Positions 18,877 through 55,666 of a stretch of DNA of 64,000 nucleotides are shown piece by piece (position 1 is the stretch's first letter; every line of letters begins with the position of its first letter). The DNA comes from Cordylochernes scorpioides (taxonomy: Eukaryota; Arthropoda; Arachnida; Pseudoscorpiones; Chernetidae): the NCBI GenBank assembly GCA_030710605.1, contig CP092880.1, positions 4,682,909 through 4,746,908 on the forward strand, in the 5' to 3' direction. A program made the translations under genes and the position numbers. Under the pieces are notes generated by a model that was not told the DNA's origin, ran no database searches, and was given only the letters and a program-made list of their open reading frames with translations.

Positions 18877-18918
18877 ATTACGGACGCGTTTCGAGCTGTT
18901 GGTCCTCATCAGCGTGGT
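18877..18918 (-). ncRNA. Hammerhead ribozyme motif HHR-A
   Basis: Minus-strand order: ACCACG (helix I), CUGAUGA, GGACCAACAGCUC (helix II, weakened), GAAA, CGC, GUC (cleavage triplet), CGUAAU (helix I, partly mispaired). All invariant core bases are present. Helix I has lost pairs compared with HHR-E and HHR-F, so activity is doubtful. Confidence 0.7.
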
Positions 18919-19238
18919 ACAAGCTGTACCTCAACGACCAAAAAACTGGTCATTTAAGCATCATGAAACGGATAGTTGAGGTCAGAATTGCGTGAGAACG
19001 CGAAACAATGTAAAAAAAAAATAGTACAAATTTGATATTGTAAAAACAATAGAAAAAATAAAAATTAAGTGGGTCAGGTGTTGATATTAAAAATAAAAAA
19101 GGCATATCCTGACCAGGAGCACATTTGCTTTTCAGAAGGCAGTGCGCCATCTGGTGGAACAGAAATCAACTATTCATTGATTTAACCTGTTCCCTGATAT
19201 TTGGCCAATCCAATTTCTTGATAAATCAAGAAAAGCCA

Positions 19239-19280
19239 TCCACGAACGGGTTTCGCACTGATGGCGCTCGTCAGCGTGGA
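19239..19280 (-). ncRNA. Hammerhead ribozyme motif HHR-B
   Basis: Minus-strand order: UCCACG, CUGACGA, GCGC-CAUCA-GUGC, GAAA, CCC, GUU, CGUGGA. Helix I pairs perfectly (UCCACG with CGUGGA) and helix II has four pairs. Both helices differ from HHR-E/F in a compensatory way. GUU is a permitted NUH triplet, though usually slower than GUC. Confidence 0.75.
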
Positions 19281-19803
19281 ATAGGCTGTACCACTGCGAC
19301 CAAAAAGATTTTTTGATCCCAGTGGCTTCCTGAAAAACCAAGAAATGGGTATTTAAAGGCTAAATTTGCGTAAATACGCTTAACACATGAAAAAACAATA
19401 GAAAAAATAATTAAATTTGACATTATACTGGGATAAGGTTCATAAATTAAGAAAAAGGCATCTAATAAATATTCATGAGTTCGGTAATCTATATATGTAT
19501 TAAATGGTTACATATACCATTACTTTTATATTTATTAACTGATTGTGTGTGTCTTTTTTTTTTTTAACAAAAAAGATGATCAAAGAAAAAGAGGAAACTT
19601 TGTGCTAGACATCTTATGTAGGTTTTTTTAAACAACGAAATAAAAACAAAAATTTCTCTGAGCCGAGGTGTAGATAAAAATTGCTTTATTGTGCATTATT
19701 CACAATATGTATACGTTTAAAAAATTATGACCTTAACTACCCGTTTCATGATTTTTCAGGATTTCTGAATGACCAGTTTTTTGGTCGTTGAGGTACAGCT
19801 TGT

Positions 19804-19845
19804 ACCACGCTGACGAGGGCCAACAGCCCGAAACGTGTACGTGGT
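19804..19845 (+). ncRNA. Hammerhead ribozyme motif HHR-C
   Basis: Plus-strand order: ACCACG, CUGACGA, GGGC-CAACA-GCCC, GAAA, CGU, GUA, CGUGGU. Helix I has six and helix II four perfect pairs, and the core is intact. GUA is an allowed NUH site. Helix III consists of only the A-U and C-G pairs with a two-base loop. Confidence 0.8.
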
Positions 19846-20012
19846 TAGCTTTTCTTGATTAATGAAGAATGGGTAATTGGCAAATTCTGGAATAATTAAT
19901 AATCAACAAATAGTTGATATTTATTCCGATAGATGGCGTAAGCCATCAGCATTTTTCAGCTACACGATAAAGAGATGCCTTTTTTTCTTAATTTACATGT
20001 TTAGTATAATTA

Positions 20013-20229
20013 TGTTTCAATTTTATTAGATATTCTTATAAATAAATAAAGCTTTCAGGGTTAAGTTTCTTTTGCAACTTTTTATTTTGAAGCTTTCGGA
20101 CTTGTCAGTCCTTCAACAGGATTATCACGTTAATAAATTAACGATAAATGCCATTTTTATATACAAATTATTATTTACATATTTTAAATATTTATGTGTG
20201 ACTATTTATGATTATTTGACACTGATTCT
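20013..20229. other. No gene; hammerhead-like relic at 20090-20120
   Basis: AT-rich. On the minus strand, CUGUUGAAGGAC, a loop, GUCC and GAAAGCUUC repeat the pattern of the 12.1-kb palindrome, with A6 replaced by U. Confidence 0.4.
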
Positions 20230-20475
20230 TTGGCAAAATACAAGATAATTAAACAAAAAATAGGAAAAGATCAAATATGCGAGATAAACTTTGAGAGAAT
20301 AATTACAAAAACTATAACAAGACTTAGAACAAAACACTATAAAGGAATGACAATACATCCAGATGGCACAAGAACCTATAGAACATGTAACAACTGTCCT
20401 GGTGTGGAACTAAAACCTACTCACATATTCTCATGTCCAGCAATGGCCGCAGCCTTGCAGAAATTTGACATGACC
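20230..20475 (+). mobile_element. Non-LTR retrotransposon ORF2 C-terminus
   Basis: The frame reads TRLRTKHYKGMTIHPDGTRT, then CNNCPGVELKPTHIFSCPAM, the C-x2-C...H...C terminal knuckle of a LINE ORF2, then ALQKFDM. A one-base deletion at about 20475 (other copies have an extra G before ACCCAGAG) shifts the frame. Without it the protein would continue DPEQQLYTPKIEDIATAVIE to a stop after MHGDI. The next 2 kb repeats this end. Confidence 0.85.
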
Positions 20476-22545
20476 CAGAGCAGCAGCTTTACACACCTAA
20501 GATAGAGGACATTGCGACTGCTGTGATAGAGATGCATGGAGACATCTGAGGCTCTTCATTGGACACGACAACAATAGAAAATTGACCCAGAGCAGCAGCT
20601 TTACACACCCAAGATAGAGGACATTGCGACTGCTGTGAGAGAAATATATGGAGACATCTGAGGCTCTTCATTGGACACGACAACAACAGAAAATTAACAT
20701 AGACCCAGAGCAGCAGCTTTACACACCCAATATAGAGGACATTGCTGCTGCTGTGATAGAGATGTATGGAGACATCTGAGGCTCTTCATTGGACACGACA
20801 ACAACAACAACAGAAAATTAACATAGACCCAGAGCAGCAGCTTTACACACCCAAGATAGTGGACATTGCTGCTGTTGTGATAGAGATGTATGGAGACATC
20901 TGAAGCTCTTCATTGGACACGACAATAACAGAAAATTAACATAGACCCAGAGCAGCAGCTTTACACGCCCAAGATAGAGAACATTGCGACTGCTGTGATA
21001 GAGATGTATGGAGACATCTGAAGCTATTCATTGGACACAACAACAACAGAAAATTGACATGGACCCAGAGCAGCAGCTTTACATACCCAAGATAGAGGAC
21101 ATTTGCGACTGCTGTGATAGAAATGTATGGAGACATCTGAGGCTCTTCATTGGACACAACAACAACAGAAAATTGACATGGACCCAGAACAACAGCTTTA
21201 CATACCCAAGATAGAGGACATTGCGACTGCTGTGAGAGAAATATATGGAGACATCTGAGGCTCTTCATTGGACACGACAACAACAGAAAATTAACATAGA
21301 CCCAGAGCAGCAGCTTTACACACCCAATATAGAGGACATTGCTGCTGCTGTGATAGAGATGTATGGAGACATCTGAGGCTCTTCATTGGACACGACAACA
21401 ACAACAACAGAAAATTAACATAGACCCAGAGCAGCAGCTTTACACACCCAAGATAGTGGACATTGCTGCTGTTGTGATAGAGATGTATGGAGACATCTGA
21501 AGCTCTTCATTGGACACGACAATAACAGAAAATTAACATAGACCCAGAGCAGCAGCTTTACACGCCCAAGATAGAGAACATTGCGACTGCTGTGATAGAG
21601 ATGTATGGAGACATCTGAAGCTATTCATTGGACACAACAACAACAGAAAATTGACATGGACCCAGAGCAGCAGCTTTACATACCCAAGATAGAGGACATT
21701 TGCGACTGCTGTGATAGAAATGTATGGAGACATCTGAGGCTCTTCATTGGACACAACAACAACAGAAAATTGACATGGACCCAGAACAACAGCTTTACAT
21801 ACCCAAGATAGAGGACATTTGCGACTGCTGTGATAGAAATGTATGGAGACATCTGAGGCTCTTCATTGGACACAACAACAACAGAAAATTGACATGGACC
21901 CAGAACAACAGCTTTACACACTCAAGATAGAAAACATTGCTGTGATAGAGATGTATGGAGACATATGAATCTCTTCATTGGCCACGACAACAACAGAAAA
22001 TTGACATGGACCCAGAGCAGCAGCTTTACACACTCAAGATAGAAAACATTGCTGTGATAGAGATGTATGGAGACATATGAATCTCTTCATTGGCCACGAC
22101 AACAACAGAAAATTGACATAGACCCAGAGCAGCAGCTTTACACACTCAAGATAGTGGACATTGCGACTACTGTGATAGAGATGTATGGAGACATCTGAGG
22201 CTCTTCATTGGACATGTCAATAACAACAGAAAATTGACATGGACCCAGAGCAGCAGCTTTGCACACCCAAGATAGAGGACATTGCGACTGCTGTGATAGA
22301 GATGCATGGGGACATCTGAGGTTCTTCATTGGACACGACAACAACAACAACAATACAGTATACACACCCAAGATAGAGAACATTGCGACTTTCGTGATAG
22401 AGATGTATGGGGACAACTGAGGCTCTTCATTGGACACAACAACAACAACAATACAGTACACAGTAGAGGACATTGCTGTGATAGAGATGCATGGAGACAT
22501 CTGAAGCTCTTCATTGGACACGACAACAACAATAACAAATACTTA
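20476..22545 (+). repeat. Satellite of about 18 copies made from a LINE 3' end
   Basis: Each unit of about 118 bp contains the last coding section (ACCCAGAGCAGCAGCTTTAC, then ATAGAGATGTATGGAGACAT and the stop codon) and a short 3' UTR ending in an ACAACA microsatellite. A block of about 599 bp (five monomers) is duplicated: the rare variant AATATAGAGGACATTGCTGC occurs at about 20728 and 21327. Three further monomers lie 13 kb away at 35632-35952. Confidence 0.92.
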
Positions 22546-22920
22546 TGATATTGAGATAGAAAATATATTACATTCTTTGTGTGAAAAAACAACTTTTTGA
22601 AAATAAACGTGCATGATGGATGTACGTGCTGGTTGAACAATATCTAGAGACACTCGACGCCTAGATTTTCTAACCGGAAAAAAACGCGGAGACATGCGTG
22701 TGCATCCCAATATATACCTAGATTGTCCGTTGAGTAGGTTTATAGATCTGGGTTTGTCTTGTAGAACCTCTATCAGAACAATTTGCCTTTCTTTCCTGTA
22801 TTCCGGCGGTCAACACTTTCCTCCATCGATAGCACACCGGGGAAGTGCCGTAGACATTCTAATTCCGTGCAGACACATTCCATGTTGAAATTGGATGGTT
22901 AAAACACGGGCACTACCCCC
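22546..22920. other. Degraded GC-richer sequence, probable retroelement debris
   Basis: The string CACACCGGGGAAGTGCCGTA (22829) resembles CACACCGAGGAAGTACC at 28375, within a recognised LINE fragment, so this is likely another minus-strand LINE relic. No readable frame remains. Confidence 0.4.
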
Positions 22921-23205
22921 TATATAAAATGAAAGGATTTAAAAGCACGAATGTTTCTTTTATACATAATACAAACTTCTACTGTCCTTACTGCGATGAA
23001 AAATATGTATTGGGAGGGCTTGTCTCATCAGTGGTGAACCCTCCCAGCGGTTTCGCCAATTTAATCTACCAGACTGCTTCTTTAGAGCTCTAATACTGTA
23101 CTGGACGATTCTGCTTATATACGCAGCACTGAAGGATGGAATCTCAGAAATGGTTTTCAATAAAACTATGGACATAAGCTTATAGGACAGTAGAATTACA
23201 TTTAT
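22921..23205 (+). repeat. Dispersed repeat R1, copy 4 (near full length)
   Basis: Starts AAAATGAAAGGATTTAAAAG and ends TAGGACAGTAGAATTACATT. It differs from other copies by an insertion of TG in the ATATTGG section and a missing base near 23078. Confidence 0.8.
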
Positions 23206-23235
23206 TTATGTCTAACTACCCCCTATTTTTATTTA

Positions 23236-23590
23236 TTGCACCTAGAAACTTTATTTAATAATTACCATATATTTACAACGAACCACGGATATTTTAAAGG
23301 ATTTTTAGCAACATTTGGAGCGGTTGAAGACTCTAGCTGTCATTGTGGCAAGGAAATCCAGGACTCGAGACACCTACTGCTGGAATGCCCACTCTTCTTT
23401 AGTGCTAGACAACAGACAGTAAACAATGTTGTAGATCTATATCAATTTGTAAATACTAGAGATAATTATCACAGATTTAACCATTTTTGTAAATATATTT
23501 ATGATTATCTTTCTAACCTGAGAAAGGATCAGGTTCCTAATATATATTATTGTTTCTCTTATTTATTTATTTTGTATAATATCTTTTTTT
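23236..23590 (+). mobile_element. Non-LTR retrotransposon ORF2 C-terminus
   Basis: The open frame contains FTTNHGYFKGFLATFGAVED, SSCHCGKEIQDSRHLLLECP, with the C-x-C...H...C knuckle and the HG-x-F lead-in. It is related to the copy at 14985-15160 but less damaged. The frame remains open to 23661 only because it runs into the hairpin element at 23596. Confidence 0.85.
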
Positions 23591-23595
23591 TTACA

Positions 23596-23700
23596 CAAAT
23601 ACATTTACTGGCAATGCGTTTCTTTAAAATATCATCAAATTGCCTGTATCATTGCCAGTAAATTTATTTGTGTAAAATTTTAACGATAGATGGCAATTAA
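23596..23700. repeat. Deleted copy of the 5.5-kb hairpin element
   Basis: TTACTGGCAATGCGTTTCTT and ATTGCCAGTAAATTTATTTG match both arms at 5549-5693. One arm is shortened. Confidence 0.75.
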
Positions 23701-23839
23701 ATTTAATTTACTAATATGTTTATAACTGCTTCTGTTTAAAAATGTAAATCGACGCAATTATCTCTAGCCGGTATATCGCGTTTTGTGTGTTGAAATAAAA
23801 AAATATATATCTCTTATTTCTTTAAAAAATAGAGAATTC

Positions 23840-24180
23840 GGCCAGATAAAGTTGTCTCAACGTTACAATAAAAATCTTTTGTCTTCGTCCGGAGAAATAA
23901 AAAATATATAGCATTTGGTAAGGCGTTAATAAATATTCGGAGGTTGCAAGGTATCTTCAAGAATTTTTAACGCCTGGTCAAATTGCTTTATTTCTACTGA
24001 CGGAGATAAAAGATTTTTGTTGAAAGGTTGAGAAAATAAAAATTTAACTGGCCGAGAGAGAGAAGTGTCTATTTTTATAAAGAAATATGAATACCGGCCA
24101 GGCAACTTCTATCTTCAAGACTTACCGTATAGTTAAAAGTTGATATTATAGAGTATAATTTTCGTGTTTGTATTTTCTAT
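23840..24180. repeat. Diverged CGGCCAG/hammerhead-like family 2 elements
   Basis: Sections GGCCAGATAAAGTTGTCTCA, ACGTT...TCGTCCGG, and CTGACGGAGATAAAAGATTT..GTTGAAAGGTTGAG are decayed relatives of the paired element at 51165-51400. The ribozyme core boxes are broken. Confidence 0.5.
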
Positions 24181-24189
24181 TTATTTACA

Positions 24190-27100
24190 AACACTACCCC
24201 CGACCACAAGTCCTCCTCTACGTAGGGAGAAGCAGCACAAGTAAGGGACTGCCCTGTAGTACGGTGTCGTGAGCCCCGAGCCGCTACAGTAACCGTGAAC
24301 AGGGAACTCTGAAATGTGGCTGACTAACAGGGTAATGGCACCTCCCCATTCCATGGAGGCACAAGTAAGAGACTACCCTGTAGGGTGAAGTACGGTGTCG
24401 TGAGCCCCGAGCCGCTACAGTAACCGTGAACAGGGAACTCTGAAATGTGGCTGACTAACAGGGTAATGGCACCTCCCCATTCCATGGAGGCACAAGTAAG
24501 AGACTACCCTGTAGGGTGAAGTACGGTGTCGTGAGCCCCGAGCCGCTACAGTAACCGTGAACAGGGAACTCTGAAATGTGGCTGACTAACGGGGTAATGG
24601 CACCTCCCCATTCCATGGAGGCACAAGTAAGGGACTGCCCTGTAGGGTGAAGTACGGTGTCGTGAGCCCCGAGCCGCTACGGTAACCGTGAACAGGGAAC
24701 TCTGAAATGTGGCTGACTAACGGGGTAATGGCACCTCCCCATTCCATGGAGGCACAAGTAAGGGACTACCCTGTAGGGTGAAGTACGGTGTCGTGAGCCC
24801 CGAGCCGCTACAGTAACCGTGAACAGGGAACTCTGAAATGTGGCTGACTAACAGGGTAATGGCACCTCCCCATTCCATGGAGGCACAAGTAAGAGACTAC
24901 CCTGTAGGGTGAAGTACGGTGTCGTGAGCCCCGAGCCGCTACAGTAACCGTGAACAGGGAACTCTGAAATGTGGCTGACTAACAGGGTAATGGCACCTCC
25001 CCATTCCATGGAGGCACAAGTAAGAGACTACCCTGTAGGGTGAAGTACGGTGTCGTGAGCCCCGAGCCGCTACAGTAACCGTGAACAGGGAACTCTGAAA
25101 TGTGGCTGACTAACAGGGTAATGGCACCTCCCCATTCCATGGAGGCACAAGTAAGAGACTACCCTGTAGGGTGAAGTACGGTGTCGTGAGCCCCGAGCCG
25201 CTACAGTAACCGTGAACAGGGAACTCTGAAATGTGGCTGACTAACAGGGTAATGGCACCTCCCCATTCCATGGAGGCACAAGTAAGAGACTACCCTGTAG
25301 GGTGAAGTACGGTGTCGTGAGCCCCGAGCCGCTACAGTAACCGTGAACAGGGAACTCTGAAATGTGGCTGACTAAAAGGGTAATGGCACCTCCCCATTCC
25401 ATGGAGGCACAAGTAAGAGACTACCCTGTAGGGTGAAGTACGGTGTCGTGAGCCCCGAGCCGCTACAGTAACCGTGAACAGGGAACTCTGAAATGTGGCT
25501 GACTAACAGGGTAATGGCACCTCCCCATTCCATGGAGGCACAAGTAAGAGACTACCCTGTAGGGTGAAGTACGGTGTCGTGAGCCCCGAGCCGCTACAGT
25601 AACCGTGAACAGGGAACTCTGAAATGTGGCTGACTAACAGGGTAATGGCACCTCCCCATTCCATGGAGGCACAAGTAAGAGACTACCCTGTAGGGTGAAG
25701 TACGGTGTCGTGAGCCCCGAGCCGCTACAGTAACCGTGAACAGGGAACTCTGAAATGTGGCTGACTAAAAGGGTAATGGCACCTCCCCATTCCATGGAGG
25801 CACAAGTAAGAGACTACCCTGTAGGGTGAAGTACGGTGTCGTGAGCCCCGAGCCGCTACAGTAACCGTGAACAGGGAACTCTGAAATGTGGCTGACTAAC
25901 AGGGTAATGGCACCTCCCCATTCCATGGAGGCACAAGTAAGAGACTACCCTGTAGGGTGAAGTACGGTGTCGTGAGCCCCGAGCCGCTACAGTAACCGTG
26001 AACAGGGAACTCTGAAATGTGGCTGACTAACAGGGTAATGGCACCTCCCCATTCCATGGAGGCACAAGTAAGAGACTACCCTGTAGGGTGAAGTACGGTG
26101 TCGTGAGCCCCGAGCCGCTACAGTAACCGTGAACAGGGAACTCTGAAATGTGGCTGACTAACAGGGTAATGGCACCTCCCCATTCCATGGAGGCACAAGT
26201 AAGAGACTACCCTGTAGGGTGAAGTACGGTGTCGTGAGCCCCGAGCCGCTACAGTAACCGTGAACAGGGAACTCTGAAATGTGGCTGACTAACAGGGTAA
26301 TGGCACCTCCCCATTCCATGGAGGCACAAGTAAGAGACTACCCTGTAGGGTGAAGTACGGTGTCGTGAGCCCCGAGCCGCTACAGTAACCGTGAACAGGG
26401 AACTCTGAAATGTGGCTGACTAACAGGGTAATGGCACCTCCCCATTCCATGGAGGCACAAGTAAGAGACTACCCTGTAGGGTGAAGTACGGTGTCGTGAG
26501 CCCCGAGCCGCTACAGTAACCGTGAACAGGGAACTCTGAAATGTGGCTGACTAACAGGGTAATGGCACCTCCCCATTCCATGGAGGCACAAGTAAGAGAC
26601 TACCCTGTAGGGTGAAGTACGGTGTCGTGAGCCCCGAGCCGCTACAGTAACCGTGAACAGGGAACTCTGAAATGTGGCTGACTAACAGGGTAATGGCACC
26701 TCCCCATTCCATGGAGGCACAAGTAAGAGACTACCCTGTAGGGTGAAGTACGGTGTCGTGAGCCCCGAGCCGCTACAGTAACCGTGAACAGGGAACTCTG
26801 AAATGTGGCTGACTAACAGGGTAATGGCACCTCCCCATTCCATGGAGGCACAAGTAAGAGACTACCCTGTAGGGTGAAGTACGGTGTCGTGAGCCCCGAG
26901 CCGCTACAGTAACCGTGAACAGGGAACTCTGAAATGTGGCTGACTAACAGGGTAATGGCACCTCCCCATTCCATGGAGGCACAAGTAAGAGACTACCCTG
27001 TAGGGTGAAGTACGGTGTCGTGAGCCCCGAGCCGCTACAGTAACCGTGAACAGGGAACTCTGAAATGTGGCTGACTAACAGGGTAATGGCACCTCCCCAT

Positions 27101-27760
27101 TCCATGGAGGCACAAGTAAGAGACTACCCTGTAGGGTGTGGTACGGTGTCGTGAGCCCCGAGCCGCTACAGTAACCGTGAACAGGGAACTCTGAAATGTG
27201 GCTGACTAACAGGGTAATGGCACCTCCCCATTCCATGGAGGCACAAGTAAGAGACTACCCTGTAGGGTGAAGTACGGTGTCGTGAGCCCCGAGCCGCTAC
27301 AGTAACCGTGAACAGGGAACTCTGAAATGTGGCTGACTAACAGGGTAATGGCACCTCCCCATTCCATGGAGGCACAAGTAAGAGACTACCCTGTAGGGTG
27401 AAGTACGGTGTCGTGAGCCCCGAGCCGCTACAGTAACCGTGAACAGGGAACTCTGAAATGTGGCTGACTAACAGGGTAATGGCACCTCCCCATTCCATGG
27501 AGGCACAAGTAAGAGACTACCCTGTAGGGTGAAGTACGGTGTCGTGAGCCCCGAGCCGCTACAGTAACCGTGAACAGGGAACTCTGAAATGTGGCTGACT
27601 AACAGGGTAATGGCACCTCCCCATTCCATGGAGGCACAAGTAAGAGACTACCCTGTAGGGTGTGGTACGGTGTCGTGAGCCCCGAGCCGCTACAGTAACC
27701 GTGAACAGGGAACTCTGAAATGTGGCTGACTAACAGGGTAATGGCACCTCCTCTTTCCAT
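24190..27760 (+). repeat. 131-bp GC-rich satellite, about 27 copies
   Basis: The unit contains GTACGGTGTCGTGAGCCCCG, CCGCTACAGTAACCGTGAAC and ACCTCCCCATTCCATGGAGG, the last a small hairpin. Period is exactly 131 bp (24391 to 24522). Copies are nearly identical, much more GC-rich than the intron, and lack a long open frame. The left flank (AAGTCCTCCTCTACGTAG) and a single inverted monomer recur at 32455-32640, so the array grew inside a dispersed element. Confidence 0.95.
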
Positions 27761-28284
27761 GGAGCAACAAAATCAGAAATTGACGATCCATGCTACCGCG
27801 ACATCAGGGTGCATGGACCGATCTGATCTGCTCCATGGACAAGACACTACCACCAATTGTACTATAGTTTTTGTGTATTTGTTATCTTAAAATATTTAAT
27901 AAAGTGGTTTTGATTCTTATAATGAATAAGTTGGTATACCGAAAGCTATCGTTTGGAAATTCAAACTTCAAATATATTTTATTGACACTTAGATAATTGA
28001 TTATAAGGCGATAACCTGTCATCTATATATATGAGAAATGGAAGCATTGAAACATGAATGTTTCTTTTTAAACATAAAACAAACTTCTACTATCCTTACT
28101 GCGATGAAAAAATATATTGGAAAGGCTTGGTTCATCAGTGGTGAACAGTGATTCTCATCGCAGAGAGGACAGTAGACAATTTAAGCAATTTTATTGATTC
28201 TTCTAATCAATTTTTACAAAGGTGGATAAAATATATAATAAGATAGTAAATAAAGGGTAGATAAAATGTAGGGGAATATATATA
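27761..28284. other. No gene; R1 fragment at 28045-28145 and other repeat
   Basis: Contains a truncated R1 copy and a block shared with 43756-43842 (TTACAAAGGTGGATAAAATA, then AGGGGAATATATAT). Otherwise AT-rich. Confidence 0.5.
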
Positions 28285-28490: not shown

Positions 28491-28499
28491 GGACAGTAG

Positions 28500-30555: not shown

Positions 30556-30559
30556 TATA

Positions 30560-32640: not shown

Positions 32641-32641
32641 G

Positions 32642-34764: not shown

Positions 34765-34925
34765 TCATATTCGTGGATGGCTTTTCTTGATTTATCAAGA
34801 AATTGGGTTGACCAAGTATCGGGGAACAGGCTAAATCAATGTTTAGTTGATTTCTGTTCCACTAGATGACGCTCTGCCATCTAAAAAGCACATGTGCTCC
34901 TGGTCAGGATATACTTTCTTTATTT
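34765..34925 (-). repeat. Foldback-family fragment
   Basis: Reverse complement of 19096-19245: GTGGATGGCTTTTCTTGATT, GTTCCACTAGATGACGC, GTGCTCCTGGTCAGGATAT. Only the helix-I side (CGTGGA) of the ribozyme remains. Confidence 0.75.
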
Positions 34926-35631
34926 TAAATGTATATTTTTATTCTAAATTTAACCTTATATAATCTTATATGGACATTGTAATAGGGTAGTTTTAATCTC
35001 AATCTCTCTCTCTTGCTTTCCTTTTAATCAAAACCAAACTTTTTTTTAGAAAGAAGAGCAGAAATTGATATAATTATTTTATTTTATTTAATATTATTCA
35101 AATAAAAGATTAAATAGATTATAAAAATATATATTACTCTGTATTTGTAAAATCACCATAAAAATATTTCTTTGCTTGCTTGTTCAAGATTCCCTAGCTG
35201 TAGATAGTTGTGGTTGATTTGTTAATAATTATTGACTGGTCGCCGTGACGTCATCAATAAATACTTTTACACCTTCAGATATACAAAGATACAATTATAT
35301 ACATATAGCAGAGAATAAAATATTTAAACTATATTCTGTTATAGTAATTTTATAATAAATACGTTACGCTATTTGTAAATAAAAACTGTTTTTATTGAGG
35401 TTTATATGAAAATGTCTTTATCAGTTTGTAAGCTCCATACATTACTTACAATCTCTCTGGGAAGCTCTAGGCTTTATCTCTGATATGGATTGAGTGTGTT
35501 GTCATAACTTACACAGTTACAAGAAAGCATGAAACGCTGCAAACTTTTTAGTTGTGATGATTAAAGATTTGGGGCAAGTTCTTCAGCGACCTATAAATAT
35601 CCACGTTTTAAATACGTTTATATCGTTCTTT
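34926..35631. other. AT-rich, no gene
   Basis: Contains an inverted copy of the 29030-29150 block (GGTCGCCGTGACGTCATCAA) and the reverse of the GAGAGATTGAGATT family end near 34990. Confidence 0.5.
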
Positions 35632-36290: not shown

Positions 36291-36332
36291 CAAAGTATTT
36301 ATTATTGTAAAGATAGAGGCTGCCTGGCCGGC

Positions 36333-36426
36333 ATTCATAGTTCTTCAAATAAAAGACACTTCGGCCAGTAAATCTTTTTAAAAAGTAAAAAGATTCACTG
36401 GCCGAAGTGTCTTTTATTTGAAGAAA
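36333..36426. repeat. Hairpin from the CGGCCAG family
   Basis: Arms TTCTTCAAATAAAAGACACT and CGGCCAGTAAATCTTTTT face their complement across a loop of about 9 bp. These are the outer ends of the element at 51165-51400 with the ribozyme-like centre deleted. Confidence 0.8.
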
Positions 36427-37345: not shown

Positions 37346-37849
37346 AACAATGTGTTTTCTTGTAATTTGTCGGTTCCGAAATCCTATGATATTGAACATC
37401 CTCAGAGCTGAATATAAAAGAGTTTTGTTTTATAGAGAGCTTTTAGCGTCTAATTTTTACTATCTAAAATTTGTTTAGTAAATTTATTGTTTATTGAACA
37501 AAAAGGGATGAATAAATGTGACCCAGAAGAACTTATTTTGCGTCTTTTGTAGCAGAAAGATTATGACTCCAACCCTTGTACTCTGTACTCTTAGAAAGAT
37601 TGCCAGGTCAAAAGGTCATAACTACTTGTTACACCTCCTTTGCTGGATAGGAGAATATTCTTCTGTTAGAAATCTCTTCCACGGAATTGAGAATTTCTTC
37701 CTTTACACTGTATCAATCTATTCACGCAGAAAGTATTACCGTAACGCTTTCTGATTTGTACTACGGCGTTCTTAACTTTGGAGGTCGAAATATTTCCATT
37801 AAAGTAAGGGGTGGGATTATGCCTTATTCATAAATGTGGTGTATACGAA
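37346..37849. other. No gene recognised
   Basis: AT-rich. The 78-residue frame at 37518-37754 has no family resemblance. Confidence 0.4.
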
Positions 37850-38790
37850 ACCAATTCCATCCTTGTCAAGGGAAATGCTAACTGTATATGTGTTAGGTCC
37901 GAAGACCATTCCATCCTTTTCAAGGGGAGTGCTAAACTATTTGTGTTGGGTCCGAAGACCATTCCATTCTTGTCAAGGGGAGTACTAACTGCATATGTGT
38001 TAGGTCCGAAGACCATTCCATCCTTGTCAAGGGGAGTGCTAACTGTATATTTGTTGGGTCCGAAGACCATTCCATCCTTGTCAAGGGGAGTGCTAACTGT
38101 ATATTTGTTGGGTCCGAAGACCATTCCATCCTTGTCAAGGGAAATGCTAACTGTATATTTGTTGGGTCCGAAGACCATTCCATCCTTGTCAAGGGGAGTG
38201 CTAACTGTATATTTGTTGGGTCCGAAGACCATTCCATCCTTGTCAAGGGCAATGCTAACTGTATATTTGTTGGGTCCGAAGACCATTCCATCCTTGTCAA
38301 GGGAAATGCTAACTGTATATTTGTTGGGTCCGAAGACCATTCCATCCTTGTCAAGGGGAATGCTAACTGTATATGTGTTGGGTTCGAAGACCATTCCATC
38401 CTTGTCAAGGGAAGTGCTAACTGTATATGTGTTGGGTCCGAAGACCATTCCATCCTTGTCAAGGGAAATGCTAACTGTATATTTGTTGGGTCCAAAGACC
38501 ATTCCATCCTTGTCAAGGGGAGTGCTAAACTATTTGTGTTGTGTCCGAAGACCATTCCATCCTTGTCAAGGGAAATGCTAACTGTATATTTGTTGTGTCC
38601 GAAGACCATTCCATCCTTGTCAAGGGAAATGCTAACTGTATATGTGTTGGGTCCGAAGACCATTCCATCCTTGTCAAGGGAAATGCTAACTGTATATTTG
38701 TTGGGTCCAAAGACCATTCCATCCTTGTCAAGGGGAGTGCTAAACTATTTGTGTTGTGTCCGAAGACCATTCCATTCTTGTGTCACAAGC
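37850..38790 (+). repeat. 54-bp tandem array, about 17 copies
   Basis: The unit is GTCCGAAGACCATTCCATCC, TTGTCAAGGG, then AGTGCTAACTGTATATTTGT. With a period of 54 (18 codons), long frames stay open in several registers on both strands. The overlap of equally long frames in opposite strands shows that openness reflects periodicity and not selection. Confidence 0.93.
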
Positions 38791-39325
38791 AGAATGTTAA
38801 AGATAAGAGTTGGGTTAGAGATTATCCCATCCTTGTAAAGGAGAGTGCTAACCTAATACATATATATTTTTAATACACAGACTTTGAACTAACGTGTAAA
38901 AGAGAAATCTTGAGATCTGCGGTTCCTCTGTGCCACCTCGTCATAATCTCGGGGATTACCAAGTTGGTTTGATCGAAAGTTGTCGCTCTCACCACGGCCG
39001 TGTTTGTGCGACAGGTGTTTGGGCGGATGCGGTATATCGGGACACAAATATTTGCCTGGCTGGATTACCTCATCCTCAAATCAACTTAGCTATCTATGTA
39101 CAGTTCCACTTTATATCGATGGTGGGCTGGGAGATTGATTTAACAAATTGACGAATATATATGGGGAATTGTTTCAAGTTGAACATTATGCGAAGCCCGT
39201 CTTCATTTTACACACTGCGGTTGAGATTTTGTCTACAAACCGCGGTGGATATTCTGTCTACGGCAACTATTGTCTATTGAACACCTACAAAGTAATAATT
39301 ATCCTAAACATTTTATAAAAAATCA

Positions 39326-40390: not shown

Positions 40391-41150
40391 TTTGAATTTT
40401 ATATATTTTATTATTATTATTATTATTTATAAGGATATTTTCCCAGAGAGTTGTTTTTATTATCATGTTTCCACAAGTCTATATCTCAGAAGAAGGCCAA
40501 GTGACACTCACTCCTCACTTTCTTACTGCTACTCTTTTTGTGTTGTTTTTCTTGCTTCCCTCTTTCTCTTTCTTGTTTTTTTTTCTTCTGTTTATATCAT
40601 TGTTTCCTTTGTCTCACTGCTTTGTTCTTATGCATACCTCTGGTGAATCCTGTATAGGGTCAGTGACCCTAAATAAAGGCTTTTTGTTGTTGTTTTTATT
40701 ATAATTGTTGATATGATGCACTAGCGCGCCATCTGTTATCAAAATTCAAAACTATTTTAATAGTTTAAATTAAGAAAAAGGCATCTCCTTATCGTGCAAC
40801 TGAAAGTTGCTAATGGCTTGCGCCATCTATCAGAATAAATATCAACTATTCTCGTCGATTTTTTATATAAAAAACGTCGATATTTTAATAGTTGTTGATG
40901 GTTTCATTTAGTTGTTATTTATTTATTTAATTAATTCAAAAAATCTTAATTATTGATCTTAATTATCGGGCGCGCGAGTATATTAATCCATTGTTGTTGT
41001 TTTTTTTCTTTTGGCTAACTCAAATCTTTTTGTAGATATGTAAATAAATATTTTTTTATTTCTTTATTCTTCATGCCTAAAGTCAGGTATTTATTTTTCT
41101 AAATTTATTTAATCGGCGCTCAATTAAAACAGTGATTTAAAATTTGTTTT
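40391..41150. other. LINE tail and foldback fragment; no gene
   Basis: Contains a TTG-type retroelement tail at 40630-40705 (GGTGAATCCTGTATAGGG). A truncated foldback end follows at 40773-40870 (AAAGGCATCTCCTTATCGTG, GCTTGCGCCATCTATCAG). The rest is AT-rich. Confidence 0.65.
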
Positions 41151-42960: not shown

Positions 42961-42999
42961 TGAATGACTTATCGCATTCATCAATTGGATGATCAGGAA

Positions 43000-43345
43000 A
43001 TACCTTTTTCTTAATTTATCCACCTGATTACAGTCACTTTTGTACTATTTTTCACATTGTTTATCGTTCTCACGCACTTCTGACTTTACTACCTGTTTCA
43101 TGATTCTTCAGGCTGCCTGAAAAACCAGTTTTTTGGTCGTTGAGGTACAGTTTGCACCACACTGACGAGATCTAACAGCTCAAAACGTGTATGTGGTTAG
43201 CTTTTCTTGATTAATCAGAAATGGGTATTTGGCCAATTCTGGAATAATTTAAAATCAATGAATAGTTGATATTTATTCCGATAGATGGCGTAAGTTATCA
43301 GAAACTTTTAGTTGTAAGATCAGGAGATGTCTTTTTTATTAATTT
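43000..43345 (+). repeat. Foldback-family single arm
   Basis: Right-hand arm type: CCTTTTTCTTAATTTATCC, TTTTTGGTCGTTGAGGTACA, TTTTCTTGATTAATCAGAAA, ATTTATTCCGATAGATGGCG. It contains the degenerate hammerhead at 43156-43197. Confidence 0.8.
43156..43197 (+). ncRNA. Degenerate hammerhead motif HHR-D
   Basis: Order: ACCACA, CUGACGA, GAUC-UAACA-GCUC, AAAA in place of GAAA, CGU, GUA, UGUGGU. Loss of G12 in the GAAA box should abolish cleavage. Helix I nevertheless pairs perfectly through a compensated A-U pair where other copies have G-C. Confidence 0.7.
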
Positions 43346-43473
43346 ATCGCATCCAAAGTTCCGCAGCGTTACAAACCAACTTCAGTTTATGGATAAGCCG
43401 ACAATACCTTACTAATTTCACCATATTACAGACCTCTACGTTTCCCCTTTTAAATGTCTTCGATTAAATTAAG

Positions 43474-43755: not shown

Positions 43756-43847
43756 CCAATCAATTGTTACAAAGGTGGATAAAATATATAATAAAATAGT
43801 AAATAAAGGGTAGATAAAGTGTAGGGGAATATATATATTATAAAACA
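43756..43847. repeat. Dispersed block shared with 28195-28283
   Basis: TTACAAAGGTGGATAAAATA, AGGGTAGATAAAGTGTAGGG occur in the same order at both places. No coding content. Confidence 0.7.
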
Positions 43848-49777: not shown

Positions 49778-50038
49778 TACACCAATACCTCGCTTTGCGT
49801 CGTTTCGTTTTGCGTTTTTTTTTTCGAAGTTGCGTCACTGCTTAATTTTTACTGATTTTCACTGTGCGTCATTAGATTTTCGAAGTTGCGTTGTTTTGGA
49901 TTCGAGTCTTTAATTTTTTTTTCCTAAAATATGGCAACACCTTTGTTTTTGATTGCGCCATGCCATCAAAATTTTATTTTCACTTTGCGTCGTGTTTTTT
50001 TGGAACGTAACCCCGACGCAAAGCGAGGTATGGGTGTA
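49778..50038. mobile_element. MITE with CACCAATACCTCGCTTTGCG termini
   Basis: Inverted termini CACCAATACCTCGCTTTGCG and its near-complement GCAAAGCGAGGTATGGGTG are flanked by TA (49778-49779 and 50037-50038). Internal TTTGCGTCG strings repeat. No transposase. It lies about 600 bp upstream of exon 2. Confidence 0.9.
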
Positions 50039-50642
50039 TTTTAAATTTGATTAATACATAAAGTGATAAAAAGAGACATTATATATATAATTCTGCAGAC
50101 TTTTTATTATAAATAGACAGCTTCATGTAGCTTGAGGAACTACACTACTATGCGACTTGATTTACATCAATGTAAATAATTAATAAGTTACTTTAGAATA
50201 TAACTCATTGTAAATAGCTCAACTTGATCAACTTTCTCTCTCCACGATACTAATTATTACAGATAACTTCATCAACTTCCATCGTTGCTTAACATATTGT
50301 AAATAACTACCTTGCGATTTCTTCTATCAGTTTATGTTGTTGCTTATTTGTGTTTAATGTATATGTTTATTCAATGCTCTTTTTCTTAATTGTTTATTTT
50401 CTTTTTGACAATTCTGTTACCTACTCTACTACAATTATTGTAAATAGTTTCTCGCGCAATTATCCAGATCGGATATAGCGTGTCTTATTTACAACTGATA
50501 ATAAATAAAAAAATAATGGCGAATAATATTGGTATTTCAATATTTTTTTTGCAAGTGTTTACGAACTTTTGGGATAACGTTATATTTGAAAAGGAAAGTG
50601 TAGCGTTATAAAATAATTGAATATAAATGTGTGTGTGTGCAG
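50039..50642. other. Intron 1 terminal stretch
   Basis: AT-rich. The last 25 bases are a TG repeat directly joined to the CAG acceptor of exon 2. No repeat element was recognised. Confidence 0.5.
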
Positions 50643-50789
50643 GTACTGGCCGCCCAGCAGGTGCCCGTGAAGCCTTGCACTACGGGAGACATCAACGAGA
50701 ACACGCTATCCGAAGTCTGTCGCTCGGAGTTTGGCATCACAGAGGAACTGCTGAAGACAGGACAGCCGCTGGAACATGTCCTGGAGAAG
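50643..50789 (+). CDS. fusilli (ESRP ortholog): ESRP/fusilli splicing regulator, second coding exon
   Basis: This is a 147-bp exon of exactly 49 codons, phase 0 at both ends, bounded by a CAG acceptor at 50640-50642 and a GAG AAG|GTATTT donor. It starts VLAAQQVPVK, includes LSEVCRSEFGITEELLKTG, and ends PLEHVLEK. Its place in the gene comes from continuity: exon 1 ends VDLLSGK and this exon continues with a hydrophilic linker, as ESRP1 does between VVDL and the conserved TDGQLH block. Its composition is clearly coding-like (GC-rich third positions) against AT-rich flanks. The linker is poorly conserved in the family, so support is weaker than for exons 1 and 3. The acceptor AG is followed immediately by GT. 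Confidence 0.8.
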
Positions 50790-51164
50790 GTATTTACATC
50801 CCCGAAGTTCGGTTTACAAAATTCCCTTCTACTCAATTCTACTCAACCATTCATGATATCGTGAAGATAGAGGCTGATAGCATCCCCAGAGCATAAGGAA
50901 ATTACTCTGATGACGAGGTGAATTTTACAGTAGAAAGCAGCGGTCGGTGCATTGGTAAGCCAGTAAAACATGCTGGACTTGTATAAATACCTCTTTGAAC
51001 TCTTGTGTGCCTTTTGATGGGCTTAGAAAAGGAATTATAAGACACTCTAAATATACTAAGTACTGCTTTCTAAAAAATGGAGGGGTATTTAATAGAAATT
51101 TTATTGTTCTCTTCATTATGAAAACTATATGGATTGTCGTAAAGATAGAGGCTGCCTGGCCAGC

Positions 51165-51400
51165 ATTCATATTTCATGAAAATAAAGATACTTCGGCCAG
51201 TTAATCTTTTTGTTATCTCGACGTTTCGACAAAAATCTTTTATCCTCGTCAGGAGCAAATAAAAATTAAAACATTTTTAACGCCTTGCCAAATGTTTTTA
51301 ATTTTTGTTTGTTCCTAACGAGGACAGAAGCTTTTTGTCGAAACGTCGAGGTAATAAAAAAGATTTACTGGCTGAAGTATCTTTATTTTCAAGAAATCAA
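51165..51400. repeat. Inverted pair of CGGCCAG elements with hammerhead-like motifs
   Basis: Outer ends AAAATAAAGATACTTCGGCC and complement. The left arm (minus) has CUGACGA, helix, GAAA, CGUC (51220-51252). The right arm (plus) has CUAACGA, GGACA...UGUC, GAAA, CGUC (51315-51347). The left core is complete; the right has G5 changed to A. Relatives are at 23840-24180 and 36333-36426. Confidence 0.75.
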
Positions 51401-51547
51401 TGGTATGTTCGAGTGAATGGCATTCTCTTATTGGTAGGACATAATGATCGAATGAGATATCACGTTCCGGTTTCAATAATCCTTTGAAGAACTATTCTCA
51501 ACTGTGAAGAAATCAGTATGAACAAAAGAGGGCGTTTTTATTATTAT

Positions 51548-52270
51548 TATTATCCTTAGTACACGTGGTAAAGGCCATAATATTCATGGTGAGTTATCTC
51601 GTGTGTCTTCAATAAAGGTCACTGTAATATCTTTCAGAGTTATTGTCTGAATCCTAATATACATGCTAAAAGGTACAACTTCCTTAAGTTTTGTTAATGA
51701 GTGTTTATTGGTTATCTCGTGTGTCTTCAATAAAGGTCACTGTAATATCTTTCAGAGTTATTGTCTGAATCCTAATATACATGCTAAAAGGTACAACTTC
51801 CTTAAGTTTTGTTAATGAGTGTTTATTGGTTATCTCGTGTGTCTTCAATAAAGGTCGCTGTAATATCTTTAAGAGTTATTGTCTGAATCCCGTTATACAT
51901 GCTAAAAGGTACAACTTCCTTAAGTTTTGTCCATGAGTGTAATATTGTCTGAATCCCGATATACATGCTAAAAGGTACAACTTCCTTAAGTTTTGTCCAT
52001 GAGTGTAATAGTTAGTGACTGCTTTTACTATTAATGCATCACATATACACATGTGAAAAGCGTAGTTCGACTTTTGAACTTACAAGTGGACCAAATAGTC
52101 TTGTTTTGGTTACTTTCACTCGTTGGTGGGATTGAACTTTTGTATAAATCGAGGTTCATTAGAGCATTTTTTTTTAATCAGAAAAAAAAAGTGCTCAATG
52201 CGATATTTGATCACAGGTCGTAGCGGTCAAAAACCAGCGGTATAGACCACTTGTTCACTGACCCCGTAGG
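51548..52270 (-). mobile_element. SINE family A copy split by a Tc1-type MITE array
   Basis: SINE sequence stops at 51594 (CATGGTGAG) and resumes at about 52010 (GTGACTGCTTTTACTATTAA), then continues to a recognisable tRNA-like head ending near 52270. Between (51594-52008) are about four units of the GTCTTCAATAAAGGTCAC array. The MITE inserted in the SINE and then multiplied. Confidence 0.8.
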
Positions 52271-52719
52271 AGTGGTTTATTGTATTAAGCGACTCTCAGG
52301 TCTTCGTTATAACAATTACTACAAAGCTACTGAAAGAATTCTTAGTACGAGTGGCAGTGTAGGAGATATACTTCAGTAGACTCATCAAATAGTACTAAGG
52401 ACACATCCAAAGAGTATTATGGCCACCCAGACCTTTCGGTCCATAAGCCGGTCCTTTTTCAGTCACCTTGCCAAGGGAATGATACATTCTCCATGCACCG
52501 AGCGGCCATGTGGTTTGGCCCCTCGCGCCCGCTATTATGGTCTAGCTCCATGGAGTCGACCAATCAGCCCACAGGCGTCTACGAGAGTTTCATGGTACTA
52601 AGAAAACAATCCCCATATAATTATCCTATGTATTTAACTGTGGAGCTACACTACTAGGAGAATCTAATATGATTCCAACCACTTATGAACCCAGCTTTCA
52701 TCGCAATATGCAAATATAT
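52271..52719. other. No gene; GC-richer patch 52415-52600
   Basis: The patch (CGGTCCATAAGCCGGTCC, CCCCTCGCGCCCGC) has an open frame of 60 codons without family resemblance, probably repeat debris. Confidence 0.35.
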
Positions 52720-53033
52720 ATATATAGCTTATCCCTAGTACACGTAGTACAGGCCATGATAATCATGGTGGGTAGAAGTAGGCGACTGCTTTTACTGTAA
52801 GTGCACCACATATCTACACATGTGAAAAGCAGTTCGACTTTACACTTACAAATTTGCTAGAGCCCCGTTTGGTTACACTCGCTGGTGGGGTTGGACTTTT
52901 GCAAGAATCGGGGGCCATTGGAGCATTCATTTTTTTTTAATGAGACAAAACTGCCCAATGGGGGAATCGATCCCGGGTCGTAGTGGTCGAAAACCAACGG
53001 TTTAGACCATCCTTCCACCAACCCCCCATAGGC
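52720..53033 (-). mobile_element. SINE family A, full length
   Basis: From GCTTATCCCTAGTACACG to the tRNA-like head read on the minus strand (GGTGGAAGGATGGTCTAAAC as A-box region; GGGATCGATTCCCCC as B-box region). It follows an (AT)n stretch. Confidence 0.85.
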
Positions 53034-53204
53034 AAATATAGCCGAGTAGAGATGAAGCTGTTCCATTTAAGAGACATTGTGAAAATCAGTACAAAAGTGA
53101 AATTTTACTGAGATCAGATGGATAAATTAAAAAAAAAAAGGCATTTTCTGCTCGTGTAACTAATATTTGTTGATGGTTTGAGCAATCTGCCAGAATAAAT
53201 ATTT

Positions 53205-53391
53205 AAAAAAAAGTCGGTGGATGAGAGGGTAACACCCTCGATTCCCAACAGTCATGAACCGGGATTGAATCCCGCGTTAAAATTTTGTTTAATATGTGAA
53301 TAACCTTCATATATTATTCATTGTTTCAATTATCATAAACTAGGTTGTTCTTGTTGAGCGGTACCTATTAATGTGATTTGAACCAGAGAAT
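53205..53391 (+). mobile_element. SINE family B copy
   Basis: The tRNA-like head AAGTCGGTGGATGAGAGGGT, CCCTCGATTCCCAACAG, GGGATTGAATCCCGCG is followed by a body AATAACCTTCATATATTATT and AACTAGGTTGTTCTTGTTGA. Flanking AGAATAAATAT-type strings on both sides look like a target duplication inside the palindrome arm. A minus-strand copy is at 63677-63862. Confidence 0.8.
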
Positions 53392-53543
53392 AAATATCAA
53401 ATAATCGTTGATTTTCCAGAATTGGTTGTTGAAGTAGAGCTTGCACCAGACTGATGAGAACCAACAGCCTGTGGTTAACTTATCTTGATCAATCAAGAAA
53501 GTGTATTTCTCTTATTCTGGAATAAATCAAAAATCAACGAATA

Positions 53544-54830
53544 CCAGGTCTATTAGTATGAAACGCGAAAATGGCTGCCAGAGGGCGCTGTGCAACTTTA
53601 TTTGAGCCGACGGTGGCGCTGTTGAAGGCATTTTGTTTTTTGACTCACGTGGCATCAGCATGCGTGGAGTTTTAGAAAAATTCAAATCGTGGAAAATTTC
53701 TAGAGCCCGTGGAAAATGGTGATTTCAGAGCCAAAAAGTGCCCATTTTAGGGAAGTTTTGTTGTTCGTCTTCAACTGGAAGAAAAGTGCCACTGAAGCCC
53801 ACCGAATGCTCGAGGAAGTTTACAGCGACCACGCTCTGAGCAGATCACAGTGTTACAGGTGGTTTTAAAAATTCCAAAGTGGCGATTTCGAACTTGATAA
53901 TGAACCACGTGGAAAACCGCCCCAAAAGTTCGAGGATGCTGAACTGCAAGCTTTGTTGGATGACGACAGTACCCAAACGCAGGAGAAGCTCGCGAAACAG
54001 CTCCAGGTGTCTCAAGGTTCTGTTTCCCTACGTTTAAACAGCCTCAGAATGACCCAAAAGCTTTCCAGATAGGTCCCCCACGAGTTGAGCGAAAGGCAGC
54101 AAGAACGGCGTCTGGTAACCTGCGAAGGGCTGCTCGCCAGGCATGAAAAGAAGTCATTTTTGCACCGAATCGTAACTTCTGATGAGAAATGGATCCACAT
54201 CAGCAATCCTACGCGCCAAAAGTCGTGGGGCCTGCCCGGCCAATTTCCAAAACAGACGCCTAGGACCAATCGCTTCGGAAAAAAGGCAATGCTTTGCGTA
54301 TGGTGGGACCAGACCGGCGTAGTATATTTCGAGCTCCTGAAACCTGGTGAAACGGTCAATACTAGTCGCTACGAACACAAATGCACAGTTTGAGAGAGGC
54401 GTTGAATGGAAAAAGACCGGAATGGCGTGAAAAGCACAACAAGCTGATACTGCAGCATGACAACGCTACAGCCCACAACGCTACGGTGGTCAAAAAACAC
54501 CATAAAAGACTTGGGCTGGGAACTCTTACCCCACCCGCCGTACTCCCCAGACTTAGCGCCTTCGGACTAACACCTTTTCACATCTTTAGGACACGCCCTA
54601 AAAAACCAGGAATTTTCGAACTCAGACATACTCCGAAAATGGCTTGTTGATTGGTTCGACTCAAAAGGAATAGAATTTTTCAGACAAGGAATTCGAAAAT
54701 TGCCTGAAAGGTGGTCCGAGTGTATAGCTAATCAGGGCAATTACTTAGAATAAAAAAATCTTTTGTTGTATGGAATTGGTGAACTTTTGAATTCACTGAA
54801 AATTTTCGCGTTTCATACTAATAGACCTGG
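53544..54830 (+). mobile_element. mariner transposon, 1287 bp, non-autonomous
   Basis: Perfect inverted termini CCAGGTCTATTAGTATGAAA..CGCGAAAAT (about 29 bp) face each other and are flanked by the TA target duplication (53542-53543, 54831-54832). Length is normal for mariner. Removing the element plus one TA rejoins a foldback arm (AAATCAACGAATA|GTTGACATTTAATCC). Confidence 0.95.
53716..54753 (+). pseudogene. mariner transposase pseudogene
   Basis: Encodes a mariner-family cut-and-paste transposase of about 345 codons in the ancestral state. Visible parts in order: an N-terminal helix-turn-helix region (AHRMLEEVYSDHALSRSQCY), the linker (VPHELSE, where families usually have W/VPHEL), the first catalytic D in IVTSDEKWIH, the GLPGQ and VWWDQTGVVYFELL blocks, the second D in LQHDNATAH, and the third D in YSPDLAPSD, consistent with a D,D34D triad. 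It is broken by stops at about 53866 and 54070, a frameshift near 54377 and another near 54515, and a stop after APSD. Confidence 0.92.
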
Positions 54831-55469
54831 TAGTTGACATTTAATCCAAGAGATGTCGCAAGCCATCAGCAAATTTTAGTTGCCTGGTCAAGAGATGCCT
54901 TTTATTAAAGAGACAATATGATTATTACATTGAAAAAGAAATAAAATAAATTGAAGAAACACCTTGTAAATATAACACACCCTTATATATCATATAGTTT
55001 GAGAGAGAAAAATAGCATTTAAGGAAGGTTTCTTACAAAAAACTTCCTCGATTTCAAAAACCTTTCTAAGGAATTTTTCTCGCAAAAGAGCCATATTGCG
55101 AACTTTTTGATAAAAAAAAAAAGTGTTTGCTTACCGAAGTTTCATATTTCGTGAATATTCAGTCATGTTCTATTAGCATCTTCTGAATCCATAACTATGT
55201 GTACAAGGTAATATTTCAACTAATAAACCTTATATCAATTGTTATTTACTGATCAAGCCTCATTATCAAATGTGAAAAAATAGTACAAATGTGACATTGT
55301 ACTGGGATAAGGTGCATAAATTATGAGAAAGGCATCTCCTTATCGTGCAACTGAAAGTTGCTGATGGCTTGCGCCATCTATCGGAATAAATATCAACTAT
55401 TCTCGTTGATTTTTTAATTATTCCAGAATTGGCCAAATATACTCATCCTTGATTAATCAAGAAAAGCTA

Positions 55470-55511
55470 ACCACGGACGCGTTTCGGGCTGTTGGCCCTC
55501 ATCAGCGTGGT
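55470..55511 (-). ncRNA. Hammerhead ribozyme motif HHR-E
   Basis: Minus-strand order: ACCACG, CUGAUGA, GGGC-CAACA-GCCC, GAAA, CGC, GUC, CGUGGU. All invariant bases, six perfect pairs in helix I, four in helix II, and the preferred GUC site are present. Helix III is only A-U and C-G with a two-base loop, so cleavage may need a dimer. It is in the left inner arm of the palindrome. Confidence 0.85.
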
Positions 55512-55624
55512 GCAAGCTGTACCTCACGGTCGTGGTCTCACGCAATTCTGGCCTTAACTACCCGTTTCATGATTTTTCAGGATGCTTGAATGACCAGTTT
55601 TTTGGTCGTTGAGGTACAGTTTGC

Positions 55625-55666
55625 ACCACGCTGACGAGGGCCAACAGCCCGAAACGTGTCCGTGGT
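55625..55666 (+). ncRNA. Hammerhead ribozyme motif HHR-F
   Basis: Plus-strand order: ACCACG, CUGACGA, GGGC-CAACA-GCCC, GAAA, CGU, GUC, CGUGGU. Complete core, perfect helices I and II, GUC site. It is the mirror partner of HHR-E and differs from it only at N7 and in the helix III loop. Confidence 0.85.

Follow-up and report, generated by a model that had tools for sequence, protein, structure and literature searches.

Six short motifs resembling hammerhead self-cleaving ribozymes, some of them in inverted pairs, lie within a 64,000-nucleotide stretch of the genome of the pseudoscorpion Cordylochernes scorpioides (contig CP092880.1, positions 4,682,909 to 4,746,908; hereafter the window), and they raise the question of what kind of element carries them and by which enzyme it is moved. 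An original prediction regarded the surrounding foldback units as either terminal repeats of Penelope elements or relatives of retrozymes. Judged by their sequence, the window features are copies of a metazoan retrozyme without long terminal repeats (LTRs), belonging to two families named R1 and R2. The anatomy of the insertions is the new part of this study. It suggests that Penelope machinery copies one circular retrozyme RNA from both ends of a DNA break, a reading to which we assign a probability of roughly three in four.

Animal retrozymes have been suspected of such a partnership before. PMC7229834 and PMC7761336 propose Penelope elements as their movers because the two are found together and have type I hammerheads in common; PMC7761336 states that the retrozyme repeats hold no motif identifying the partner. 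Insertion scars that point to Penelope by their anatomy bear on this question, and the sheer number of copies in this genome, tens of thousands, offers a way to test the claim directly. A literature search retrieved no paper joining hammerhead ribozymes and chelicerates, and among 17 papers that mention C. scorpioides and a genome, the eight titles listed do not concern retrozymes.

Hammerhead Motifs and Their Abundance

All six predicted places carry the motif, both by inspection of the sequence and by a family covariance model (69–88 bits, E values from 3.8e-19 to 2.9e-25), which was trained on 34 family copies including these six. The common order of core and helices had been claimed for every copy and is intact in four: 55470-55511 (minus strand, type I, helix III ACGCGU; 88.5 bits, E 2.9e-25), 55625-55666 (plus, type I, helix III ACGUGU; 86.5 bits), 19804-19845 (plus; 87.4 bits) and 19239-19280 (minus; E 2.8e-19), the last being an R2 copy with helix I UCCACG/CGUGGA and helix II GCGC/GUGC. 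The hammerhead at 43156-43197 (plus; 72.4 bits) reads AAAA for the required GAAA, with loss of G12, shows a mispaired helix II and is probably dead. At 18877-18918 (minus, R1; E 3.8e-19), helix I contains two C.A mismatches and helix II one A.C mismatch. Since these two are damaged, four of the six look competent. The model reveals two additional decayed copies at 53436-53480 (plus) and 56373-56417 (minus).

The paired changes previously read as preserving the fold hold up across the family: among 34 distinct copies, 8 of 16 pairs show changes on both sides, and none of five covariation measures was reached by any of 500 shuffles. With the Rfam hammerhead models no window copy attains the gathering score, two copies matching HH9 with 26.5 and 21.3 bits, and four hammerhead regions taken as isolated RNAs of 71–72 nt fold no better than shuffles. 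Helix III consists of two pairs and a 2-nt loop; its commonest form, ACGCGU, is self-complementary, and dimer action is plausible because this helix is palindromic.

Model-independent evidence comes from a pattern search of the 2.62-Gb assembly (24 contigs), in which the motif occurs far beyond chance. The exact core with helix III CGCG yields 36,723 matches (18,279 + 18,444) and the core with CGTG yields 770 (403 + 367), while the reversed patterns yield none in either case. The CGTG pattern matches mainly decayed copies; for CGCG the pattern was slightly wider, and this form is some 48-fold more frequent. The first 100 CGCG places, an unselected sample from the start of contig 1, comprise 53 of R1 type and 47 of R2 type (sorted by hand on helix II) and group into 68 clusters. 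Among these, 52 are single and 16 multiple, the latter being same-family divergent (9), purely tandem (4), same-family convergent (1) or of mixed family (2). Tandem arrays in this sample reach five successive units, at a spacing of 338 and also of 350.

Identical cores in opposite orientation also occur on contig 1 at distances of about 70–175 kb, namely 63994531(-)/64062272(+), 88125295(-)/88300794(+) and 104772149(-)/104845649(+), and represent large inverted duplications, assembly duplication or chance. At 3078-3736 of locus L016, a 76-nt retrozyme piece around the hammerhead forms a local tandem, a minisatellite of the ribozyme only.

A Noncoding Cyclic Unit

The cyclic unit to which R1 copies align measures 338 nt. 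R2 is a second family with tandem spacings of 349–352 nt (340 nt in one decayed copy) and 66% identity to R1 (216/326). The GC content of the unit is 0.40–0.41. Copies appear as truncated monomers, head-to-tail multimers of up to 3.7 turns and head-to-head foldbacks. Over six turns of one unit no stop-free stretch exceeds 49 amino acids, and no open reading frame (ORF) for a reverse transcriptase (RT) with a GIY-YIG domain lies inside the unit. Folded as circles, eight units reach minimum free energies of -100 to -115 versus about -70 for shuffled sequences (z from -6.1 to -9.6).

The expectation of retrozyme relatives is borne out by this noncoding, tandemly repeated unit with its type I hammerhead. 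Plant LTR retrozymes are characterized by a type III hammerhead, LTRs and a target site duplication (TSD) of 4 bp; here the arrangement is type I, the TSD is longer, and no LTR-like layout was seen in the copies examined, the primer binding site and polypurine tract not having been searched for. The unit corresponds instead to the metazoan non-LTR retrozymes of coral, mussel and axolotl as described in PMC7229834, with which it shares a type I hammerhead of conserved core, a noncoding low-GC unit in the range of about 170–400 nt, tandem copies, an apparent absence of LTRs, a TSD above 4 bp and a highly paired circular fold. It differs from them in its two arachnid families, about 37,000 exact cores, foldbacks and fixed insertion ends; the word 'inverted' is absent from the main text of PMC7229834. 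The very short helix III recalls the dimer-active hammerhead repeats of newt and salamander, as cited in PMC7229834 and PMC7761336, from which the present copies differ by a helix III that is commonly the palindrome ACGCGU and by dispersed inserts that often form foldbacks.

Insertion Ends and Junctions

Insertions were studied in the window and in 63 loci. Two sets of 20 loci come from 100 listed CGTG-pattern places (the first set mostly with canonical cores), three further loci are L001-L003, and the remaining 20 surround the top matches, out of 60, to a copy of 494 nt. This gave 78 insertion rows at no less than 82% identity, 72 of which are clear of locus ends and were classified. Their ends cluster at two sites of the unit, A (about position 157) and B (about 203), some 46 nt apart.

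The 33 foldbacks have the ends A/B (21), B/B (3), A/A (1), A/other (5), B/other (2) and other/other (1). Where both ends could be classified, 21 of 25 are thus A/B (P 0.0005 against one half). Single-arm insertions (n = 39) end predominantly at A (28), less often at B (3) or elsewhere (8). The inserts behave as copies of a cyclic unit: its junction 338|1 is crossed 113 times, only 4 of 126 segments start within 4 nt of it, and 36 of the 126 exceed one unit, the longest measuring 1,244 nt. A start exactly at the ribozyme cleavage site, suggested by locus L025, was considered and dropped, as the 126 segments show no enrichment there and a small repeat is present at the L025 start.

Edge words of at least 9 nt are common to both sides of 18 of the 51 inserts outside (TA)n, compared with 2.1% in mismatched pairs, and (TA)5 or more lies near an edge in 18 of 69 inserts. 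Foldbacks, too, carry target duplications (e.g., L018, L024, L034, L038, and L053), and therefore a foldback enters as one event. All 38 inverted junctions are head to head, none convergent, and 18 of them overlap by at least 2 nt, where about 17% would be expected. In two loci, filler of 58–67 nt separates two retrozyme segments (L012 4893-4959 and L030 342-399); the L012 filler closes with a stretch of A residues, which would fit an enzyme that had switched to a different RNA.

Evidence for One Template per Insertion

Pairs of copies from one insertion agree at nine diagnostic sites in 510 of 530 cases (96%; mean 55% and maximum 61.5% in 500 null sets), a value that may be slightly inflated as the sites were picked after inspection of the data, with two at insert ends and some others excluded. 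The agreement extends across the two arms of foldbacks, where 242 of 253 pairs agree and 19 of 23 insertions are uniform (2.8 expected). Among all multi-copy insertions, 28 of 35 are uniform versus 5.7 expected. At non-CpG sites in L029-L048, copies of one insertion differ by 1.2% within the same arm and 1.0% between opposite arms, and copies of different insertions by 2.6%. Turns and arms that carry one and the same variant are what is expected of one circular template; this comparison of variants speaks for a single, probably circular, template in each event.

The strongest alternative does without a circle: the template would be a linear, multimeric RNA transcribed from a young tandem array. 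Such arrays exist, as seen among the first 100 places, and a homogeneous one would explain multi-turn copies as well as uniform variants. Yet uniformity prevails although the family holds many haplotypes, and published retrozymes accumulate as circles (PMC7229834); we consider a linear template unlikely.

Comparison with Penelope Elements

We compared the insertions with endonuclease-containing Penelope-like elements. As reported in PMC3846280, rotifer Penelope inserts have inverted pseudo-LTRs with a 31-bp tail on one of them and TSDs of 8–10 bp. PMC11167929 describes an Anolis Penelope protein that cuts and extends both strands, prefers AT-rich DNA and starts at two internal sites, the interval between them being the genomic 'tail'. 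The retrozyme insertions resemble these elements in their inverted end repeats, the extra tail on one repeat, the short TSD, the AT-rich target, the two start sites and the hammerhead upstream of those sites; an A/B foldback corresponds to the Penelope layout with a 46-nt tail. This is a likeness of anatomy, not membership: in both sources the elements are autonomous and possess an RT and GIY-YIG ORF, whereas the retrozyme has none.

Penelope coding sequence was found in 5 of 20 ten-kilobase loci, with ORFs of at least 150 amino acids in L025 and L026 and decayed pieces in L012, L013 and L015, in all cases separate from the 338-nt unit. Two Penelope fragments served as queries; 51 homologs used in tblastn drew in other repeats. 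The L025 family encodes an RT and a GIY-YIG domain and is 45% identical to L026. With Pfam, RVT_1 exceeds the cut-off in L026 and GIY-YIG stays below it in both; their Penelope identity is further based on homologs with PF00078, PF26215 and PF01541, and in part on motifs that we take to be typical of Penelope.

A minimal hammerhead and ends of its own characterize the L025 family. There are 1,327 first-look candidates, of which the 40 that were scored are 96–100% identical, and 20 of these 40 places end 3' at either of two sites 32 nt apart (the tail), A in 8 and B in 12; as places were ranked by score, a slight bias towards B may be present. Both L091/L092 and L093/L094 form B/A foldbacks in which the two edges have a 12-nt word in common (null 1.1% for at least 9 nt), and L025 itself is a B/A foldback with a shared edge word of at least 9 nt.

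Two further families show Penelope-type minimal hammerheads, a loose pattern that occurs 25 times in 264 kb, in some cases by chance. Family G foldbacks (n = 20, from 20 fetched places and local copies) are A/B in 17 cases, other in 3 and never B/B; A/A could not appear in this sample because the query contains the B end. The window contains one at 51137-51395, with one arm reaching the G site B and the other A and no coding part seen, and a short one at 36308-36425 with B/A ends. Family G was at first taken for a Penelope element, but coding matches are absent next to its copies; its hammerhead alone therefore characterizes it, and the comparison with Penelope is founded on the L025 family. 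Family H has, by eye, the same look in L014 and at 18.4–18.7 kb of the window, where a foldback with approximate edges at 18432-18665 carries minimal hammerheads at 18550 (minus) and 18579 (plus), ends of unequal length and no coding part seen. In L082, a retrozyme arm stands between the two arms of a G foldback and is flanked by an apparent 14-nt duplication (judged by eye), probably a nested insertion.

With B lying 3', a stem can be drawn around site A in R1 (7 pairs), R2 (7), G (7) and H (6). Its score is reached by 112, 74, 16 and 489 of 2000 shuffles, respectively (combined P 0.0018). In the L025 family the best stem does not rise above chance expectation (634 of 2000), and its inclusion gives a combined P of 0.0026. 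Between R1 and R2 the stem differs by two compensatory changes. A Penelope link is real at the level of insertion ends, foldback layout and target duplications, which mirror those of the resident L025 family.

A long interspersed nuclear element (LINE) might instead mobilise the retrozyme and produce foldbacks by ordinary twin priming. 5' truncation and target duplications of 9–15 nt also fit LINEs, and the window holds ORFs that we presume to be LINE-like. In LINE twin priming, however, the 3' end lies at one edge only, while copying of the retrozyme inserts starts at both outer edges, in most cases from A on one side and from B on the other, a pattern that the resident Penelope family shares (no LINE was compared). 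The relationship of short interspersed nuclear elements (SINEs), non-autonomous parasites of a LINE RT, to their partner is similar in principle; from such pairs the retrozyme differs in that no significant shared 3' sequence was found, in the shared end pattern and in the circular-looking template. We rate mobilisation by a LINE slightly below the linear template.

Very unlikely is the other half of the original prediction, by which the foldbacks would be pseudo-LTRs of an autonomous Penelope element served by the hammerhead. The resident family with its minimal hammerhead and identical foldback layout, as well as Penelope coding in a quarter of the 20 loci, would suit this idea; but a 338-nt noncoding unit repeated head to tail, away from Penelope coding in the loci, is not a Penelope terminal repeat, and L025 has a hammerhead and ends of its own. 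Snap-back self-priming of a single cDNA, proposed for rotifer Penelope in PMC3846280, accords with head-to-head junctions throughout but is rejected, as the arm starts are unrelated (within 10 nt in 2 of 38 junctions, 2.4 expected by chance) and the ends usually lie at different sites.

Proposed Mechanism

For copying of one retrozyme circle by Penelope machinery, we envisage four steps. Transcripts of tandem copies would be cut at the hammerhead GUC, as the intact cores lead us to infer, and a palindromic helix III would favour cutting between two hammerheads. The monomers would then be closed into a circle, which the cyclic behaviour of the insertions suggests. A Penelope-like GIY-YIG/RT enzyme, postulated from the anatomy, would break AT-rich DNA; one DNA end would prime at A and the other at B, both on one circle and some 46 nt apart (the anatomy itself is observed), and both cDNAs would run round it for up to 3.7 turns. 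Finally, the cDNAs would become linked head to head, in many cases through microhomology, and so form a foldback with a 9–15-nt duplication; use of A alone would leave a single 5'-truncated copy. Both layouts are observed among the insertions.

Several points weigh against this reading. All evidence is genomic DNA, from which RNA circles, cleavage and enzyme are deduced; the copies were sampled by choice rather than at random, and the comparison of end patterns covers the L025 family, G and, by eye, H. Seven of the 35 insertions are not uniform (the window, L033, L041, L042, L055, L058, and L066; strongly so L066 and L041). Sites differing within an arm, commonest at insert ends, carry family-wide variants in 56% of cases versus 15% for random change, and a multimeric linear RNA of a young array could mimic one circle. 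On the Penelope side, the foldback L089/L090 is B/B, with identical flanks on both sides and no duplication; for these two reasons it is likelier a larger palindrome. Family G may itself be non-autonomous, since seven single or nested copies have only about 140–165 nt in common. Taken singly, the hairpin at site A is weak in R1, R2 and H as well as in the L025 family, and no significant shared sequence names the partner, the likeness of TTTTTTCTTCCTTAAATTA and CCTTTTTCTTAATTTA at site A being one by eye only.

More tentatively, Penelope RTs might by nature use RNA circles produced by hammerheads as templates, starting from the two DNA ends at a break, an idea that we find doubtful, if less so than a linear template. 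If true, Penelope pseudo-LTRs and tandems would be overrun past one turn of the element's own circle, the retrozyme would be a stripped circle using the same enzyme, and the unexplained Penelope hammerhead would gain a function. Against it, hammerhead mutants had no effect on insertion in vitro and no reads fell at the cleavage site, as reported in PMC11167929.

Retrozyme Insertions in the Window

BLAST against the cyclic unit delimits an R1 foldback at 55269-55866, whose arms, 55269-55526 (minus) and 55536-55866 (plus), each end at B (unit 204), which makes it one of the three B/B cases. It forms the centre of larger inverted arms, 55117-55332/55803-56018 (91%) and 54831-55053/56089-56311 (93%), so that nested palindromes span 54831-56311. 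This could reflect insertion at a palindrome tip or flanks carried along; the Penelope pair L089/L090 has identical flanks, too. A second R1 foldback (12929-13201), devoid of a ribozyme, has a minus arm to B (203) and a plus arm to A (147).

The tract 18667-19463 on the minus strand is a mosaic of R1 (unit from about 136), R2 (19406-19035), R1 (172-372), a 35-nt filler and R1 (11-150) to site A. It is best read as a template switch between two retrozyme RNAs in one copying event; alternatively, it may stem from later recombination. Two plus-strand R1 insertions end at A, a single arm at 19723-19995 (unit 222-494) and one of more than one turn at 42981-43347 (unit 119-495), the latter with the 9-nt word TTATCGCAT common to its edges. 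Smaller remnants are a 5'-truncated R1 piece at 40766-40866 (minus) that ends at A, with a 13-nt word common to its edges, a 5'-truncated R2 piece at 34770-34930 (plus), and a decayed R1 fragment at 53422-53540 (plus) around the hammerhead remnant 53436-53480 (cmsearch).

Other Features of the Window

Sub-gathering Rfam matches to microRNA precursors at 12056-12202 and 60259-60340 coincide with foldbacks or ends bearing minimal hammerhead motifs of Penelope type and are likely false positives. A below-threshold match to the type-P1 twister ribozyme lies at 57866-57917 (plus; 36.3 bits versus a gathering score of 67.2, E 3e-4). A GC-rich unit of 131 nt is present in some 27 nearly identical copies at 24258-27764, mostly at 98–100% identity. 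A further tandem array, of a 54-nt unit, occupies 37786-38878; it matches, on the minus strand, the conserved 5' region of the small nuclear RNA (snRNA) U6atac, five units pass the Rfam gathering score, and the array looks like a satellite derived from an snRNA fragment.

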